A DNA stretch of 64,000 bases from Sediminibacterium sp. (GTDB lineage Bacteria; Bacteroidota; Bacteroidia; Chitinophagales; Chitinophagaceae), in NCBI RefSeq assembly GCF_030695065.1, contig NZ_JAUYTR010000016.1, positions 62,001-126,000 of the forward strand, written 5' to 3'. Within the stretch, counting starts at the first letter, position 1, and the number at the start of each line of letters is the position of its first letter. The translations under genes were made by a program, and so were the position numbers. Shown one piece after another: positions 2,953 through 9,531 of this stretch. Under the pieces are notes generated by a model. That model saw nothing but the letters and a program-made list of their open reading frames with translations. It ran no database searches and had not been told where the DNA came from.

Positions 2953-4062
2953 TTAGACACTTAAAAATTGGTCGTGAATATAGTCTACCACACTAATTAA
3001 GCTCCCCGTTTCTTTATAAACTTTTAATTGTCTATCGGCACCTGTACCAACTTCAAATATTTTGGCTACATGTTCTACCACATGTCTACTACCTAGTTCG
3101 TCAACAACATCATCTACAAAATCAAGTAATTCATAAATCAAAGCCTTGGTATCTACTTCCGTTTCTTTCCCAAAATCAATCAATTTGCCTTCAATTCCAT
3201 ATCTGCTGGCTCTCCATTTATTCTCATTAATCAATGATCGTTGATAAATCATGAAGTTGAGGTTCTGGTTTCTGAGTTTATAAATTTTAGCACAAATAGC
3301 TTGAAACAAAGCTGCAATGGTCATGGTTTCCATTATATTCATTGGTACATCACATATTCTGAATTCCACTGTATTAAAAAAAGGATGTACCCTTAAGTCC
3401 CACCATATTTTCTTTGCGTTGTCTATGCAGTTGGTCTTAATTAAAAGGTTCACATAATTTTCATATGCTTCAAAACTTTCAAAATGATCTGGGATACCTG
3501 TTCTTGGGAACTTATCAAAAACTTTGGTTCGGAAAGATTTATAACCAGTATCCCTAGATTCCCAAAAAGGAGAGTTGGTACTTAATGCATATACATGCGG
3601 TAAAAAATAACGAGCTGTATTGGCTATATGAATGGCCATTTTTCGGTCTTCCATTCCAACATGTACATGAAGACCAAAAATTAGATTACTCCTTGCTGCT
3701 TCTTGTAATTCGTTTACTATTTGGTTGTACCGAACATGGTCTGTAATTAATTGATTTTCCCAATGGCTAAATGGATGTGTGCCAGATGCGCCAACCCAAA
3801 GACCTAATTCACCGGCAATTTGTGCAATATTCCCTCTAAGTGAAGCCACATCCTTAAAAGCCTCGTCTATATCTTTACAAATATCTGTTCCAACTTCTAC
3901 AACGGCTTGGTGCATTTCGGCTTTAACCTTGTCTTTCATAGAGAGCTGACCTACTTGTACTATTTTTTGCTCATGACTTTTTAACTCCCTAGAAATGGGA
4001 TCAATTACCATGTATTCTTCTTCAACTCCTAAAGTAAAATGCTTAAAACTTAAATTAGACAT
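2953..4062 (-). CDS. Carboxylate-amine ligase, GCS2/YbdK family
   Basis: 369 residues, typical of the YbdK-type glutamate-cysteine ligase family (ATP-dependent amide bond formation between a carboxylate and an amine). The glutamine-synthetase-like fold is marked by G-V-E-E-E at 12-16, G-A-S-G-T-H-P-F at 91-98 and H-V-H-V-G at 132-136, with E-F-R-I-C-D-V-P further on, all of which fit metal and ATP binding. Family members have weak gamma-glutamylcysteine ligase activity; the real substrate is generally unknown. It lies 23 bases downstream of the ATP-grasp gene (4086-5039) in the same direction, so the two ligases probably act in one pathway, with the divergent esterase at 5158 as a third member. 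Confidence 0.88.
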   Translation of the reverse strand: MSNLSFKHFTLGVEEEYMVIDPISRELKSHEQKIVQVGQLSMKDKVKAEMHQAVVEVGTDICKDIDEAFKDVASLRGNIAQIAGELGLWVGASGTHPFSHWENQLITDHVRYNQIVNELQEAARSNLIFGLHVHVGMEDRKMAIHIANTARYFLPHVYALSTNSPFWESRDTGYKSFRTKVFDKFPRTGIPDHFESFEAYENYVNLLIKTNCIDNAKKIWWDLRVHPFFNTVEFRICDVPMNIMETMTIAALFQAICAKIYKLRNQNLNFMIYQRSLINENKWRASRYGIEGKLIDFGKETEVDTKALIYELLDFVDDVVDELGSRHVVEHVAKIFEVGTGADRQLKVYKETGSLISVVDYIHDQFLSV

Positions 4063-4085
4063 ATGCTAAAACTGATATAGACTGA

Positions 4086-5039
4086 TTAATAAAGTGGCTT
4101 TCCGTTGGCGCTTCTTTTTATGTACTCACCCCAAGTTAAATTGTCTTTTCCGTCTTCTTGAGCCAGGGCTTTTTCAATTGCATAATTTGCTGCTGTTTCA
4201 ACTACCCAGTCAAAATTCTCTTGGCCAACACTTTTAATATCTGCATCTGGTGCAGGATTGCAAAAATCAATTGCATATGGAACTCCGTCTCTTAAAGCCA
4301 ATTCAACTGTATTAAAATCGTATCCTAGATATTGATTAATCTTAAGTACTATATCCGTCATCATTTTTAGCTTTTCTGCTGAAGGTTTAAAATCTGCAGC
4401 ATACCTGAGATGGTGTGGGTTTCTGGGTTCATAAGACATGATGCGTACATGCTTTCCTCCAATACAGTAACAACGATAATACTCTTCAAAAACAATTTCC
4501 TCTTGAAGCAACATGACCAACTGCCCTGTTTCGGCGTGCTTTTCAAAAAAGTCATTCATGTCGGTTAGTTTGTACACATTTTTCCATCCACCTCCAGCAA
4601 ATGGTTTCATGTATGCAGGGAATCCTACGTAGTTAAATATTCCTTCCCAATCTAATGGGTAAGACAAATTACTAAAAGATAATTCAGCTGTATCGGTTGG
4701 CAATTCTTTAGAAGGGAGAATTACCGTTTTGGGTACAGCTACTTCAATTTTTGTTGATAAACAGTTATTGAAAAATTTCTCATCGGCACTCCACCAAAAT
4801 GGATTATTAATCACAGCTGTTCCACAAAGTGCTGCGTTTTTTAAGTATGCTCTATAAAATGGTACATCTTGACTAATACGATCAATGATTACTGCATAAC
4901 CACTGCTTTCTCCTTGAACTACTTTATCTATTTTTACGGGCTCTGCTGTAATACCCTTTACTTGTTTGCTATTGATTCTTTCAACAAATGCATTAGGGAA
5001 ACTTCTTTCTTGCCCAAAGAGGATACCTATTTTTTTCAT
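4086..5039 (-). CDS. ATP-grasp family ligase
   Basis: 317 residues. The N-terminal third looks like a pre-ATP-grasp Rossmann-type domain. The ATP-binding core shows Y-M-K-P-F-A-G-G-G at 143-151 (phosphate loop), Q-E-E-I at 179-182, and the metal-binding end A-I-D-F-C-N-P-A-P-D at 256-265. ATP-grasp enzymes activate a carboxylate as an acyl phosphate and join it to an amine or thiol. No signal peptide, so cytosolic. It is first in a two-gene minus-strand unit with the GCS2-type ligase at 2953 and divergent from the esterase at 5158. I cannot assign a substrate; RimK, D-Ala-D-Ala ligase and glutathione synthetase are more distant. Confidence 0.8.
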   Translation of the reverse strand: MKKIGILFGQERSFPNAFVERINSKQVKGITAEPVKIDKVVQGESSGYAVIIDRISQDVPFYRAYLKNAALCGTAVINNPFWWSADEKFFNNCLSTKIEVAVPKTVILPSKELPTDTAELSFSNLSYPLDWEGIFNYVGFPAYMKPFAGGGWKNVYKLTDMNDFFEKHAETGQLVMLLQEEIVFEEYYRCYCIGGKHVRIMSYEPRNPHHLRYAADFKPSAEKLKMMTDIVLKINQYLGYDFNTVELALRDGVPYAIDFCNPAPDADIKSVGQENFDWVVETAANYAIEKALAQEDGKDNLTWGEYIKRSANGKPLY

Positions 5040-5157
5040 AATTGCAGTTTTTAAGGTTGATTTGTAATTTAAGCTATCTATACATAAATAAAAAAATATC
5101 GCTATCTATTTTTAATACGATGCCCTATTTTTCATTCATTACCCTATTTTTGATATT
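5040..5157. promoter_or_regulatory. Divergent control region with two pairs of direct repeats
   Basis: This 118-base AT-rich spacer lies between the ATP-grasp gene (minus) and the esterase (plus). GCTATCTAT occurs at 5073-5081 and 5101-5109 (28-base period). CCCTATTTTT occurs at 5123-5132 and 5142-5151 (19-base period). The second CCCTATTTTT contains a perfect Bacteroidota -7 box, TATTTTTG at 5145-5152, only 5 bases before the esterase ATG, so its transcript may have almost no leader. The repeats could bind a regulator of both units; that is inference. Confidence 0.45.
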
Positions 5158-5973
5158 ATGTCTAATCATATTATTATTCAACCACCTATAATGGAAATGG
5201 AGACCAGTGTGGTTCATTCTGAATATTTAGAACGAGATGTTGCCATCAATATTTACTTGCCATCTAAAATACATTACCTAGATCAGGTAAGTCTTTTATT
5301 AATAAATGATGGTCAAGATTTAATTAAAATGTCTTTTGATAAACTCTTTACTGAGTTATTAACCAATGGAAGTATTGAGCCAATTGTATGTGTAGGCATT
5401 CATTGTGGTCCGGAACGTAAAATGGAGTATGGCACTGCGTATTCTGCAGATTTTGATGGAAGAGGCGCTAAAGCAGGGTTGTATAGTAAATTTATTTTTG
5501 ATGAGCTATTGCCCTTTATTAGAAAGAAATACAATGCTCCATCATTCAAAGACAAATCATTTGCCGGATTTTCTTTAGGCGCATTAAGTGCTTTAGATAT
5601 TGCATGGAACAATGCCAGCGAGTTTAGAAAAATTGGATTATTTAGTCCTTCTCTTTGGTGGCGAAGAAAAGCCTATGAAGACGGTTATGATGATGAACAA
5701 GATAGATTGATGCATTTGCAAATTCGAAAGGGGAAGTTTCATCCATGGCTGCAATTTTTTATTGAATGCGGTGAATTAGATGAAACTGCAGATAGAAATA
5801 ATAACGGAATAATTGATTCTATTGATGATGCATTAGATTTAATTGTTGCTTTAAAAGCAAAGGGGTATACCGAAAACCATATTCAGTATTTGCAAGTGGA
5901 AGAAGGTAAACACGATATTGAAACTTGGGGTAAAATAATGCCTCAATTTCTACAATGGGGTTGGGGTAAATAA
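5158..5973 (+). CDS. Alpha/beta-hydrolase, putative esterase (esterase D-like) with EF-hand-like loop
   Basis: 271 residues in the putative esterase family (PF00756 type). The nucleophile elbow is G-F-S-L-G at 137-141 (Ser139). A C-terminal E-E-G-K-H-D at 248-253 supplies the likely catalytic His252. N-D-G-Q-D at 50-54 is the usual strand-end motif of this family. No signal peptide, so cytosolic. Residues 212-223 spell a canonical EF-hand-like loop (D, N, N, G, I, D, D at positions 1, 3, 5, 6, 8, 9, 12), which suggests bound calcium. It is divergent from the two amide-forming ligases at 2953 and 4086 and may hydrolyse or transfer their product. The gene ends at a strong bidirectional terminator. 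Confidence 0.85.
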   Translation: MSNHIIIQPPIMEMETSVVHSEYLERDVAINIYLPSKIHYLDQVSLLLINDGQDLIKMSFDKLFTELLTNGSIEPIVCVGIHCGPERKMEYGTAYSADFDGRGAKAGLYSKFIFDELLPFIRKKYNAPSFKDKSFAGFSLGALSALDIAWNNASEFRKIGLFSPSLWWRRKAYEDGYDDEQDRLMHLQIRKGKFHPWLQFFIECGELDETADRNNNGIIDSIDDALDLIVALKAKGYTENHIQYLQVEEGKHDIETWGKIMPQFLQWGWGK

Positions 5974-6057: not shown

Positions 6058-9000
6058 TTAGAAAATATAACGAACACCTAATTGCATAGACCATGTGCTG
6101 GCTAAGCTTAGGTTATCTTGCCATGGCTTAGTTACCAACTGGCCACCTTGTTGTTGTAAGTTGAATGTAGGACGACCTTGTGCATCATAACCTCTAAAGA
6201 GTAGGGGCTGAGCGGTAGTTACAATTTGTCTTACACCAGATGACTTGAACAACATATTTCCAAAGTTGAAAATGTCGGCTGTAACTTGAATGGTATGTTT
6301 GCGATTACCAATATTGGTGAAAATGTCTTGAACAACTCTTAAGTCAAAACGACTAACCCAAGGTAAATATGCTTCATTACGACCAGCATACTTGCCAATA
6401 TTTTTTCTTAAATATGGACTGTTTTGAACAAATTGTTGCCATGCAGCTGTTTGCTCAGCAACAGATCTTGCAGGGTTTCCACCACTAGCAGCTTGTGCAA
6501 CAAAATTTGGAACATAAGTAATATGCATTAAATCAGAAGCGTTATTTCCATCATTATTAATGTCTCCATTGTAAGTGTAGCTGAAGTTATTTCCTCTAGC
6601 AATCTCACCAAATAAGCTGAAAGTAGTAGCTAGATTTTTACCATAGTTAAGCTTGTAAGATAAAGACGTAATGATTCTGTCTGGATTCACATATGCTGAG
6701 TTGAATAATTGTTGGTCATTCTGTGTTCCAGTAGTTGGGTTACTCTGCCAAGTAGAAGTAGCCTGGCTACCTGGGTTAGCTGTTAACTCATTTGCATAAC
6801 TCTTAGTGTAAGCAATCATTCCAGAGAATCCACTTTGAGTGGTCTTAGTTAATTGAACAGTGAAAGATCCACTATTACCTTTAGATGCATTTTCTAATAT
6901 TATAGCAGATCCAATATTGCTGTATACTCTTCTATCAGCAGTTGTTGCAAATCTACCTCTGGTGTCATCTCCATTCGAAATTACAGCGTTAGTATTACGC
7001 TGGTTAGCATTTCTCATGATCACCGCGTTAATATCTTTGGTTAATAAGGCTTCAACTGTTAAACCCCAACCATTGCCTAGTTTTTTATCGAATGCGATAT
7101 TGGTTCTCCAAATTTGAGGGAAGCGGAATTCCTTGTCCATCAATACTACATTCGCATTATTTGGTAACACGCCTGCAACTGGGCTAAAGCTTCCGCGGTA
7201 AGCATCTGGATTTGGGTTGAATAAGAAATTACCTAATAGAGCAGGATTCGTAACCGCCTGACTAGCTTGGTACATTTGGCTATTACCTGGCATATTGGTT
7301 AAGTATACAAAAGGAATTCTTCCTGTAAATAAACCGGTACCTCCTCTAACAACAATGTTCTCATCGTCAATTTTGTAACGGAAACCAATTCTTGGAGAGA
7401 AATAAACAGAGTTTTGCTTAGGCCACTCACTGGTTTTGAAATTGGTTGGTACGCCATTTCTATCAGGGAATGAAAGTGCCGATACATTAGGATTCTCTAA
7501 TGGAGCTTCTGGGAATAATACTTTATCAATTCTTATTCCGTAAGTTAACTTGAAGTTTTCGTTCACGTTAAATTCATCCTGTGCATAAATGCCTAATTGA
7601 CCCACTTTTAAATCTGCTGCATAAACAGATGGTTTATTAGGATCTAAAGAGAAAGTATAAGAGAATGCTGCTGGAGCTCTGTTGGTAATAAAATCATTTA
7701 ATGAATTAAATGCATAGTAGCTAGCAGAACCTGGCATAAACATATTACCTACACTTTGGTACTCATAAGAAGCTCCACCTGTAATGGTGTGCTTACCAGC
7801 ATAGTAAGTAAAGTTATTGGTAACAGTGAACACATCATTTTTAACATCGTTGTTTCTGGTAAATGGATCTGAACCAGCTGACATATAGTTTTGTCCATTG
7901 TTATTGAAAATATCAATAGTAGGGAAGAAACCTCCATCAATTGAACGAGTTGCTTGAATCTTAGAGAAAGTAGCAATAAACTGGTTAGAGAATTTGCCAC
8001 CAAAAGATGAATTCAATTCCAATGATCCTGTTCTTACAACGTCTTTGAATTTATAGTTAGAATTAGAAAAAGACATTGAGTTCAAGCTGAAACGGTTATT
8101 CGGTAAACGTGATATTGAACCTCCGCCAGCAGGAGTAAATGTTGGGTTATTTGGAACACTTGATCCATTTAATTGCTGGTCGTTAAAGCTTGTTAAATCA
8201 CTATACTTCAAGGTTAACTTGTGATTGTTGTTGATGTTCCAGTCAATTTTAGCTAAGATTTTTGTATTCTTAGTACTAAAATTCGGGAAGTTGTCAAAAG
8301 AACCTGGGTCGTAACCGTAAGCAGTTCTTAAATGATTTGCAAATTTGTTTAATGAATCAACACTAGTATTACTAACATTACCAGCTCCAGAACCACCTCT
8401 TGGGCTGAATGTAATACCTGGTTGGCTTCTTTCTTCATTCTCGTATGAACCAAAGAAGAACAATTTGTTTTTAATAATAGCACCGCCTAAAGTAGCACCA
8501 TAAATTTTATTACTAGATTTTACTTGAGCAGGTAACTTAACATCACCTACATTGGTACCGTTGTAATCTTGGTTTCTATACAAACCATAAAATGTTCCTT
8601 TTAAAGTATTGGTACCGCTTTTAGTTACGGCGTTAATACCAGCACCTGTAAAACCAGATTGTCTTACGTCAAATGGAGCTATGTTAACAGAAACTTCTTC
8701 AATTGCATCAATTGATATAGGGCTTGCTCCACCACCAGGTAATGGATCAGAACTTAAACCAAAGTTGTTGTTTAAGTTAGCACCATCCACTTGTGTGTTG
8801 TTGAATCGGCCATCTCTACCAGCAAAGCTTGTACCGTTGGCTTGTGGGGTAACACGAGTGAAGTCTGTAATGCTACGACTGATGGTAGGCATTGTACTTA
8901 ACATGCGTTGATTAATCACAGTAGAAGCTCCACCAGATTTATCTCCACTAGATTTTTTCTTCAATGCATTTACCACTACTTCACTCAATACTTTAGACTC

Positions 9001-9333
9001 GTCAATTAAAGTAGGGTTAATTACATAAGGCTCACCCAATAAAAGATAGATATCATTTACTGTTTCTACCTTCAATCCAGTGAAAGTGATTTTTAATGTG
9101 TAAGGTCCACCTGTTCTTAATCCAGGTAAAGTAAACACACCGCCTTTTTTTGCAAGTGTAGAATACTGCGTACCAGAAGGGGTGTGTACAGCAACAAGGC
9201 TGGCTCCCTCAATGGGTTGCCCATCAGCAGTTTTTACAACCCCTGAGATACTACTTGTAGTAACCTGGGCGGTTGTGATCAAAGTTGCTAGTGCAGCAAC
9301 CATAATCATTGAAATTCTTTTAAAAATTCTCAT
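6058..9333 (-). CDS. TonB-dependent receptor, Oar-like, with carboxypeptidase-regulatory-like N-domain
   Basis: About 1091 residues. Signal peptide at 1-22, ending at T-T-A-Q. A carboxypeptidase-regulatory-like (CNA-B type) domain occupies about 25-115. The plug region follows, with D-G-A-N-L-N-N-N-F-G-L-S and G-A-G-I-N-A-V-T-K-S-G-T-N, and then a long beta-barrel ending R-Y-I-F, an aromatic C-terminus suited to BAM-dependent insertion. It belongs to the Oar/TonB-dependent receptor group of Bacteroidota outer membranes; the ligand is unknown and no SusD partner is adjacent. The start is placed at ATG 9333, not the in-frame TTG at 9354, because it gives a clean signal peptide. A second receptor of the same type lies directly upstream (9532-12696). 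Confidence 0.88.
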   Translation of the reverse strand: MRIFKRISMIMVAALATLITTAQVTTSSISGVVKTADGQPIEGASLVAVHTPSGTQYSTLAKKGGVFTLPGLRTGGPYTLKITFTGLKVETVNDIYLLLGEPYVINPTLIDESKVLSEVVVNALKKKSSGDKSGGASTVINQRMLSTMPTISRSITDFTRVTPQANGTSFAGRDGRFNNTQVDGANLNNNFGLSSDPLPGGGASPISIDAIEEVSVNIAPFDVRQSGFTGAGINAVTKSGTNTLKGTFYGLYRNQDYNGTNVGDVKLPAQVKSSNKIYGATLGGAIIKNKLFFFGSYENEERSQPGITFSPRGGSGAGNVSNTSVDSLNKFANHLRTAYGYDPGSFDNFPNFSTKNTKILAKIDWNINNNHKLTLKYSDLTSFNDQQLNGSSVPNNPTFTPAGGGSISRLPNNRFSLNSMSFSNSNYKFKDVVRTGSLELNSSFGGKFSNQFIATFSKIQATRSIDGGFFPTIDIFNNNGQNYMSAGSDPFTRNNDVKNDVFTVTNNFTYYAGKHTITGGASYEYQSVGNMFMPGSASYYAFNSLNDFITNRAPAAFSYTFSLDPNKPSVYAADLKVGQLGIYAQDEFNVNENFKLTYGIRIDKVLFPEAPLENPNVSALSFPDRNGVPTNFKTSEWPKQNSVYFSPRIGFRYKIDDENIVVRGGTGLFTGRIPFVYLTNMPGNSQMYQASQAVTNPALLGNFLFNPNPDAYRGSFSPVAGVLPNNANVVLMDKEFRFPQIWRTNIAFDKKLGNGWGLTVEALLTKDINAVIMRNANQRNTNAVISNGDDTRGRFATTADRRVYSNIGSAIILENASKGNSGSFTVQLTKTTQSGFSGMIAYTKSYANELTANPGSQATSTWQSNPTTGTQNDQQLFNSAYVNPDRIITSLSYKLNYGKNLATTFSLFGEIARGNNFSYTYNGDINNDGNNASDLMHITYVPNFVAQAASGGNPARSVAEQTAAWQQFVQNSPYLRKNIGKYAGRNEAYLPWVSRFDLRVVQDIFTNIGNRKHTIQVTADIFNFGNMLFKSSGVRQIVTTAQPLLFRGYDAQGRPTFNLQQQGGQLVTKPWQDNLSLASTWSMQLGVRYIF

Positions 9334-9531
9334 AATCTTGGTTTTGTGCGGCAAATATCCGACTAAAGGCTTATGAACCCAAAATCTTGTTAAAATAAAG
9401 CTCCATTTTGGTAAAGTTTATGAACATATGCTCATTAAATTGACGCAGATATTCTTATTTAAGTAATTGATATACAATATAATATGTAGTTTAATTCAAC
9501 CCAATTCGCGTTTGTTAAAAGCAACCGTTTG

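Follow-up and report, generated by a model that had tools for sequence, protein, structure and literature searches.

Stand-alone ligases of different fold beside a divergent esterase in Sediminibacterium: part of a candidate pathway to a gamma-glutamyl-type peptide in Bacteroidota

What might two amide-forming ligases of different folds produce when their genes lie side by side and next to a divergently oriented esterase gene, and do the three belong together at all? The question is raised by a locus in Sediminibacterium sp., which was studied within a window of 64,000 nt, that is, the whole stretch of DNA that was analysed (Table 1). The open reading frames have the positions and strands given in the initial annotation of this window, and the gap of 23 bases between F0 and the downstream F1 (4063-4085) as well as the divergent orientation of F5 were confirmed.

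Table 1. Features of the locus, with positions in the window.
Feature	Position	Strand	Basis
F1: GCS2/YbdK-type carboxylate-amine ligase, 369 aa	2953..4062	-	ORF + PF04107, NF010039
F0: RimK/LysX-fold ATP-grasp ligase, 317 aa, gene 1 of two-gene unit	4086..5039	-	ORF + model
Divergent control region common to F0 and F5	5040..5157	.	118 bases
F5: esterase of family PF00756, 271 aa, transcribed away from F0	5158..5973	+	ORF + PF00756
EF-hand-like loop of F5 esterase, residues 212-223 (DRNNNGIIDSID)	5791..5826	+	conserved residues

F1 is a predicted carboxylate-amine ligase of the GCS2/YbdK type, as initially annotated; it exceeds the cut-offs of the GCS2 family PF04107 (194.5 bits, cut-off 21) and of the equivalog model NF010039 'carboxylate-amine ligase' (522.9, cut-off 371), and its relatives in the PDB are YbdK (1r8g) and 1tt4. 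It thus shares the family of the YbdK/EgtA-type ligases, but differs from them in its operon partners. E14-E16, E49, H51, H132, H134, R224, E233, R235 and further residues are invariant in the 18 GCS2 sequences aligned out of 56. We know of no physiological substrate for GCS2 ligases of the NF010039 type.

For F0, sequence models alone are insufficient, and the ATP-grasp label proved right because the AlphaFold2 model (pLDDT 89.8) aligns to RimK (5zct) with a Z-score of 22.9 over 264 residues (rmsd 2.8). As modelled, F0 is an ATP-grasp protein of the RimK/LysX type: ArgX and LysX align with Z-scores of about 22, and the best Foldseek match is 3vpc (E 5.1e-14). Across RimK, LysX and ArgX the same fold is found (Z 22.9-21.7, 260-266 residues), but identity is 13-17%, and F0 stays below the cut-off of the RimK family model TIGR00768 (alpha-L-glutamate ligase; 20.6, cut-off 143.4), for which a relative of F0 (L076) scores 36.6. 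No Pfam gathering or NCBIfam cut-off for ATP-grasp was reached by F0, including that of R2K_2 (PF18299; 13.2, cut-off 26.2), and a phmmer search of the PDB with F0 alone gave chance hits only. Membership in the R2K clade was rejected as sub-threshold; five of 37 members match at E <=0.01, the best at 4.8e-4. K145, R189, E246, D258 and N261 are kept in at least 90% of the 37 copies aligned out of 108, and by analogy we take them to be ATP- and metal-binding residues. As a further difference from these ligases, no gene for a LysW-type carrier was noticed in the F0 operon among ORFs of at least 70 aa.

The esterase call for F5 is borne out by PF00756 (79 bits, gathering cut-off 22); a siderophore (enterochelin-type) esterase was rejected, as NF007758 gave 29.5 with a cut-off of 222. 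S139 (in GFSLG), D208 and H252, presumably the catalytic triad by analogy, are invariant in the 11 copies that were aligned from the 21 of cluster F5. The 'calcium loop' for which this esterase had been singled out is present as an EF-hand-like sequence motif, D212-x-N214-x-N216-G217-x-I219-D220-x-x-D223, all named residues of which are invariant in the 11 of 21 copies. We regard it as a putative calcium loop that matches the canonical EF-hand at positions 1, 3, 5, 6, 8 and 12; unlike in the canonical EF-hand, the residue after the loop is D and not hydrophobic. In the shared control region, CTATTTTT is repeated three times with a period of 19 bases. In part of the 40 relatives compared out of 59, a similar A/T-rich stretch recurs beside the esterase start, and the triple repeat was not seen in these 40; a conserved operator was rejected, since the copies of CTATTTTT do not recur there and the k-mers that stand out are A/T-rich 8-mers.

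Of 296 genomes sampled from the phylum, 108 have a match to F0, including four weak matches (G007, G087, G160 and G287; 32-44% identity) with all three partners absent, and five matches interrupted by an in-frame stop (G086, G113, G204, G272 and G290); among 72,556 plasmid records no F0 match was found. F1 occurs in 103 of the 296 genomes, and two further families are frequent partners: a second ATP-grasp ligase, F2 (92 of 296; 89 of the 108 with F0), and F4, a glutamine amidotransferase of class I (70 of 296; 69 of 108). F0 shares 91 genomes with F1 and 89 with F2 (Fisher p < 1e-40, uncorrected for shared ancestry), although such genome-level p-values are inflated because the families are co-inherited along the species tree. 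GCS2 proteins of at least 52% identity were found in 87 genomes, all of which also have F2 and 84 of which have F0. GCS2, F2 and F4 are missing from 17, 19 and 39 of the 108 F0 genomes, respectively. Distances between the families correlate with r 0.68 to 0.88, values reached by 0 of 999 permutations; we do not count this tree congruence as a sign of joint function, since any vertically inherited genes would be expected to show it.

The two ligase folds are paired in gene order as well. Of the 91 genomes that have both genes, 55 have GCS2 immediately downstream of F0 and on the same strand (gaps of -113 to 387 bases); beyond these, one GCS2 lies 3.3 kb from F0 and one is a fragment at a contig end. 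Among the 108 loci, of which 103 are in the main F0 cluster, the order F0-F1 was found in 55, F0-F1-F2 in 11, F0-F1-F4-F2 in 27 and F3-F0-F1-F4-F2 in 23, all of which are lower bounds because some ORF calls are over-extended or split. F3 is another PF00756 esterase, which stands immediately before F0 in 41 of 108 loci. F5 orthologues occur in 25 of 296 genomes, every one with F0 (the copy in G037 has an in-frame stop), and are placed upstream of F0 and divergent in 22 of the 25. A divergent upstream esterase is also found in 75 of 76 named loci, which stem from the best 80 of 574 confirmed stretches and are close relatives by construction because they are the best-scoring ones. At E <=0.001, matches to F5, most of them weak, are spread over 161 of the 296 genomes, in many of which the ligases are absent, and F5 may act on something else than the ligase product.

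Lineages mostly gain and lose these families jointly. Counted by family within the window's class, six of 29 genomes of family f5 have all four genes (F0, F1, F2 and F4), 22 have none and one has three; f1, f2, f3, f8 and f9 likewise include genomes that lack all four. Four of the five sampled genomes of f2 have F0, F2 and F4, with GCS2 absent, and in the Chitinophagaceae (f1), the family of the window, the F0-F1 pair is usually apart from F4/F2. In 12 genomes a CP_ATPgrasp_2 protein (F6) lies beside F0 and F2 is absent. Three genomes (G144, G154 and G220) have F2 and GCS2 without F0; a contig-end artefact was rejected for G154, in which GCS2-F4-F2 lie together midway along a 21.6-kb contig and other genes follow; loss can thus be confined to F0. 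An M17-like gene, named by eye, lies close to the operon in family f4.

These distributions bear on whether the neighbours in the window are unrelated housekeeping enzymes that became adjacent by accident. Within the window itself the argument does come from location, and the flanking genes for an ECF sigma factor and an outer-membrane protein (737-2814), rejected as parts of the system, have matches in no more than 14 and 12, respectively, of the 74 named loci compared (again from the best 80 of 574). Order and orientation are, however, conserved in many families, and presence is near all-or-none; chance adjacency of F0, GCS2 and F5 was rejected on the grounds of conserved adjacency, co-occurrence and gene order, and we consider an accidental origin extremely improbable. 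The initial annotation had proposed the three genes as one candidate small-molecule system, in which the esterase might trim or transfer the product. Conserved adjacency, divergent orientation and largely joint gain and loss argue for the functional link, but not for a unit of these three: GCS2 is absent from some F0 genomes, F5 is present in only 25 of the 108, and the frequent partners F2 and F4 are encoded elsewhere in this genome.

There, F4 and F2 are adjacent on another contig (G000:C17). The model of the genome's own F2 aligns with E. coli YgiC (Z 26.6), YjfC (26.3) and GspS (24.2) over 341-348 residues, but at only 10-13% identity, and with human glutathione synthetase (24.2); the yeast enzyme was matched as well. 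As modelled, the fold of F2 is that of the group formed by YgiC/YjfC, glutathionylspermidine synthetase and eukaryotic-type glutathione synthetase. This assignment relies on fold comparison because the F2 profile found YgiC in the PDB at E 0.031 only; the genome's own F2 had no NCBIfam match, and an F2 relative (L066:11366-12562) scored 20.3 against the Glutathionylspermidine synthase family PF03738 (cut-off 29.3). K299 is invariant in 21 aligned copies (21 of 47 in the cluster or own copy), and we take the loop K-P-x-x-x-x-x-G-x-G to resemble the nucleotide loop of the YgiC/GspS fold.

Gamma-glutamylcysteine ligases of plants and of some bacteria also have the GCS2 fold, and together with the match of F2 to glutathione synthetases this invites a simple reading, in which GCS2 would make gamma-glutamylcysteine and F2 would add glycine, to give glutathione or another thiol. 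F1, however, scores far below the cut-offs for gshA_cyano (TIGR02048; 60, cut-off 249.05) and the plant ligase (TIGR01436; 15.8, cut-off 463.15), and F0 and F4 would be without a role. The genome of the window probably has another thiol, because its BshC for bacillithiol synthesis exceeds the cut-off (386.7, cut-off 265.8). Glutathione synthesis was therefore rejected as the main reading and is very unlikely.

F4 can be read in two ways. A relative (L065:5422-6240) exceeds the cut-off of PF00117 (40.7, cut-off 22.8), and the triad Cys111/His214/Glu216 is invariant in 18 aligned copies, the own copy included. PuuA and PuuD offer a parallel for amine scavenging with a gamma-glutamyl hydrolase. 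By this analogy, GCS2 and F2 would gamma-glutamylate or peptidylate an amine for scavenging or detoxification, and F4, with its complete triad, would be the hydrolase. An M29 peptidase takes the F4 slot in four loci, and F4 is absent from all four genomes, a replacement more in keeping with a hydrolase than with a supplier of ammonia; four cases are few, however (hypergeometric p 0.015). YgiC and YjfC are reported to be peptide-spermidine ligases (Pederick 2023, cited in the available text of PMC12568646), which also fits. Yet simple glutamylation would not call for as many as three ligases, and no oxidase, dehydrogenase, aminotransferase or transporter was found among the annotated recurrent families (F0-F8, F12 and F37), so we regard amine scavenging as quite unlikely.

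The peptidases also bear on a role in protein modification. RimK, the nearest fold to F0, modifies RpsF, and F0 might likewise add glutamate or other residues to a protein, with GCS2, F2 and F4 building, extending or removing the tag and nearby peptidases (M29, M42-like) recycling it. Peptidase genes do recur: besides M29 in the F4 slot and the M17-like gene, an M42-like gene adjoins F4 in the window's genome and a sister genome (sub-threshold NCBIfam matches). In the available text of PMC4431377, other ATP-grasp clades are predicted to carry out protein-peptide ligation. F2, on the other hand, is nearest to small-peptide ligases, and no gene for a small carrier or target protein was noticed among the recurrent families (ORFs of at least 70 aa); protein modification is therefore rather unlikely.

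We slightly favour a pathway of stand-alone ligases that leads to a small gamma-glutamyl-type peptide or peptide-amine conjugate, with F0 and F1 as its 'first half' in the window. The ligases F0, F1 and F2 would act successively: GCS2 would activate glutamate, or a similar acid, at its gamma-carboxylate and join it to an amine or amino acid, and F2 would add the next amino acid or amine, as the enzymes nearest to it in fold use glycine, beta-alanine or spermidine to cap a gamma-glutamyl peptide. F0 would form a further amide bond, its nearest folds adding amino acids via acyl-phosphates, and F4 might supply ammonia for an amide or hydrolyse the gamma-glutamyl bond. The esterases F3 and F5 could take off an acyl group or transfer it. 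What F0 or F2 acts on does not follow from fold similarity, and no single chemistry suits all lineages because GCS2, F2 or F4 is missing from part of the F0 genomes. We are aware of no product, substrate or mutant phenotype for the gene set, and our literature search found no product for the combination of F0, F1, F2 and F4.

A precedent for such a pathway is E-64, a pseudo-tripeptide made without an NRPS by successive ATP-dependent stand-alone ligases of different fold (PMC12568646, available text). According to the same text, the closest structures to the E-64 ligase Cp1B are human glutathione synthetase and YgiC/YjfC, and Cp1B matches the F2 fold in our comparison (Z 22.8). The E-64/dapdiamide systems differ, however, in their second ligase, an adenylating amide bond synthetase, and that text names no GCS2 or glutamine amidotransferase. 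Likewise, the partners of F2 are GCS2, a RimK-like ligase and a glutamine amidotransferase, whereas a glutathionylspermidine-synthetase-related ligase has PspA-type neighbours in the part of PMC11237479 available to us. Linked peptide ligases have been described in amidoligase neighbourhoods (Iyer et al. 2009, Mol Biosyst 5:1636, as cited in the available text of PMC4431377).

A bolder and more doubtful extension of the favoured ligase pathway is a new metabolite found throughout the Bacteroidota, a gamma-glutamyl tri- or tetrapeptide or a peptide-polyamine conjugate, made by three ligase architectures with a glutamine amidotransferase and a calcium-loop esterase. Within this extension, the product could be glutathionylspermidine-like, in bacteria that use bacillithiol, and the divergently controlled esterase could serve its release or turnover. 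F0 and F2 are each carried by roughly one in three of the genomes sampled from the phylum, and a pathway with a real physiological product is suggested because genomes largely keep or lose the ligases as a set. The gene set also provides a pathway context for the NF010039-type GCS2 ligases, which so far have only generic annotations.

The initial annotation had linked two co-directional ligase genes, separated by 23 bases, with a divergent esterase gene. The three open reading frames and this gap were borne out (see the table), and the divergent region spans 118 bases. The assigned families also hold: GCS2 for the ligase F1 and PF00756 for the esterase F5 were each found above curated cut-offs, and the ATP-grasp assignment of F0, which scores above no curated cut-off, is upheld by its predicted structure (pLDDT 89.8). 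In this model F0 takes the fold seen in RimK (Z 22.9, 264 residues, rmsd 2.8) and in LysX/ArgX (Z about 22). In F5, S139, D208 and H252 are retained, and the key positions of an EF-hand-like loop (212-223) are invariant in 11 aligned copies. The window (G000:C1:62001-126000) belongs to a 3.3-Mb genome, and among the matches listed the nearest named relatives of F0 are Chitinophagaceae, followed by Pedobacter and Mucilaginibacter; a Chitinophagaceae bacterium MAG (92%), Sediminibacterium, Ferruginibacter, Hydrotalea and Niabella are among the nearest. These matches point to Chitinophagaceae as the family of the window. C-terminal tails rich in lysine and alanine occur in several F0 proteins, the longest in L065 (L065:7505-8803) and shorter ones in L055, L060 and L135; a histone-H1-like HC2 model matched one of 37 aligned F0 members, and neither feature is present in the F0 protein of the window.

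Genes and sequence features of the window locus and of the recurrent neighbourhood of F0
Feature	Position	Strand	Loci	Remark
F1, GCS2/YbdK-type ligase	2953-4062	-	56	
F0, RimK/LysX-fold ATP-grasp ligase	4086-5039	-	103	loci in cluster
CTATTTTT, three copies	5106-5113, 5125-5132, 5144-5151	+		exact 19-base period, between divergent genes
F5, PF00756 esterase	5158-5973	+		
TonB/Oar-like outer-membrane receptor gene	6058-9354			tail-to-tail with F5; named by eye
F3, second PF00756 esterase			46	237 aa
F4, class-I glutamine amidotransferase			45	
F2, YgiC/glutathione-synthetase-fold ATP-grasp ligase			47	about 396 aa
M42-like aminopeptidase ORF	L140:124-642			flanks F4/F2 on C17; below NCBIfam cut-off
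MiaE-like gene	L140:2694-3323			flanks F4/F2 on C17; below NCBIfam cut-off

The proposed adjacency recurs widely. F0 is present in 108 of the 296 genomes sampled across the phylum, and the neighbourhoods of all 108 F0 loci, in which gene-order counts are lower bounds, contain GCS2 in 57 cases, always downstream and on the same strand (57/57). It follows F0 immediately in 55 loci, with gaps of -113 to 387 bases; one of the other two copies lies 3.3 kb away, and one is a fragment at a contig end. Among the named loci (the best 80 of 574 confirmed stretches, which are close relatives through their selection), GCS2 lies behind F0 and in its direction in 73 of the 74 with downstream room, and within 400 bases in 61 of them. 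The esterase stands upstream and divergent in 75 of the 76 with upstream room, within 1.5 kb in 74, and was not found in one.

Of the 296 genomes, 25 encode an orthologue of F5 (at least 36% across 220 residues or more); all 25 carry F0, F2 and F4, and 23 carry GCS2. F5 is divergent and upstream of F0 in 22 of the 25. It is the gene next to F0 in nine loci, and otherwise F3 or other genes intervene, at distances up to 3.6 kb. In G178, F0 lies on a different contig, yet F5 and F3 still form a divergent pair. Matches of any strength (E 0.001 or better) to F5 were found in 161 and matches to F3 in 139 of the 296 genomes, in both cases partly in genomes without the ligases; thus, neither family of esterases is specific when taken as a whole.

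Clustering of the ORFs neighbouring F0 revealed a longer operon. The complete order F3-F0-F1-F4-F2 is found in 23 of 108 loci, nine of which have the divergent F5 ahead; F0-F1-F4-F2 occurs in 27 loci and F0-F1-F2 in 11, and F3 immediately precedes F0 in 41. The predicted fold of F2 (pLDDT 91.7) is that of YgiC (Z 26.6), YjfC (Z 26.3), glutathionylspermidine synthetase and human glutathione synthetase (both Z 24.2), and F4 retains Cys111, His214 and Glu216 in 18 aligned copies. In the window's genome, F4 adjoins F2 on contig C17, in an M42-F4-F2 arrangement common to the sister genome G150, and contig C15 encodes an esterase resembling F3 (31% identity). In five loci of family f4 (L046, L051, L062, L069, L070), two further genes stand ahead of the operon: F7, also of the ATP-grasp type, and F12, which judged by eye resembles leucyl aminopeptidases.

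These genes are largely gained and lost jointly. Among the 296 genomes, F0 is found in 108, F1 in 103, F2 in 92 and F4 in 70, with overlaps of 89 (F0 and F2), 91 (F0 and F1), 87 (F1 and F2) and 69 (F0 and F4); all four occur in 50 genomes and F0-F1-F2 in 34 more. The p-values for these overlaps leave shared ancestry out of account. All 87 genomes with a GCS2 of at least 52% identity possess F2 and 84 possess F0; wherever GCS2 occurs without F2 (16 genomes), its identity is just 32-46%. Likewise, the four partnerless F0 matches are the four weakest genome-best ones. In family f5 (29 genomes), six carry all four genes, 22 none and one three; the set is likewise missing from some genomes of f1, f2, f3, f8 and f9. 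Since joint gain and loss extends to Chitinophagaceae (f1), where F0-F1 is mostly separated from F4/F2, it is not wholly a by-product of linkage.

Several genomes depart from the full set. No F0 match was found in three genomes carrying F2 and GCS2 (G144, G154, G220). G154 keeps F2, F4 and GCS2 together (L248, G154:C60) without an adjoining F0, well within a 21.6-kb contig and with other genes beyond the group; single loss of F0 is therefore possible, as for GCS2 and F4, and G154 is a natural variant in which F0 looks dispensable. Four of five genomes of family f2 have F0, F2 and F4 without GCS2. In 12 genomes, a CP_ATPgrasp_2 protein (F6) occupies the usual GCS2 position downstream of F0, and seven of these encode a more distant GCS2 (37-46%) elsewhere. 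An M29 peptidase (F37) lies between GCS2 and F2, in the usual F4 slot, in L083, L090, L128 and L130. F2 is absent from all 12 genomes with F6 (hypergeometric p 2e-11) and F4 from all four with the M29 peptidase in its slot (p 0.015).

Between the divergent genes of the window, the third CTATTTTT copy extends to TATTTTTG, which matches the Bacteroidota -7 box; none of the 40 relatives inspected, out of 59, showed the triple repeat. The receptor gene lies tail-to-tail within 600 bases of the esterase in 33 of 74 named loci (from the best 80 of 574), in constant orientation, so synteny partly reaches past the pathway.

No description of this gene set was found in the literature searched, which did not cover Iyer et al. 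2009, the likeliest source of any earlier prediction. That study is cited in PMC4431377. E-64 biosynthesis (PMC12568646) is an example of pseudo-peptide formation by a stand-alone ligase with the F2 fold, and a title cited in that paper reports YgiC and YjfC as peptide-spermidine ligases. Judged by their families, GCS2 and F2 would correspond to both steps of glutathione synthesis and to the capping reaction of the glutathionylspermidine route. Glutathione itself is unlikely as the product: gshA-type models score far under cut-off, and BshC is present. Linkage, folds and retained catalytic residues are observed; by family, F4 may supply ammonia or hydrolyse, and the three ligases would use ATP-dependent acyl-phosphate chemistry, so that a single product would contain two or three amide bonds.
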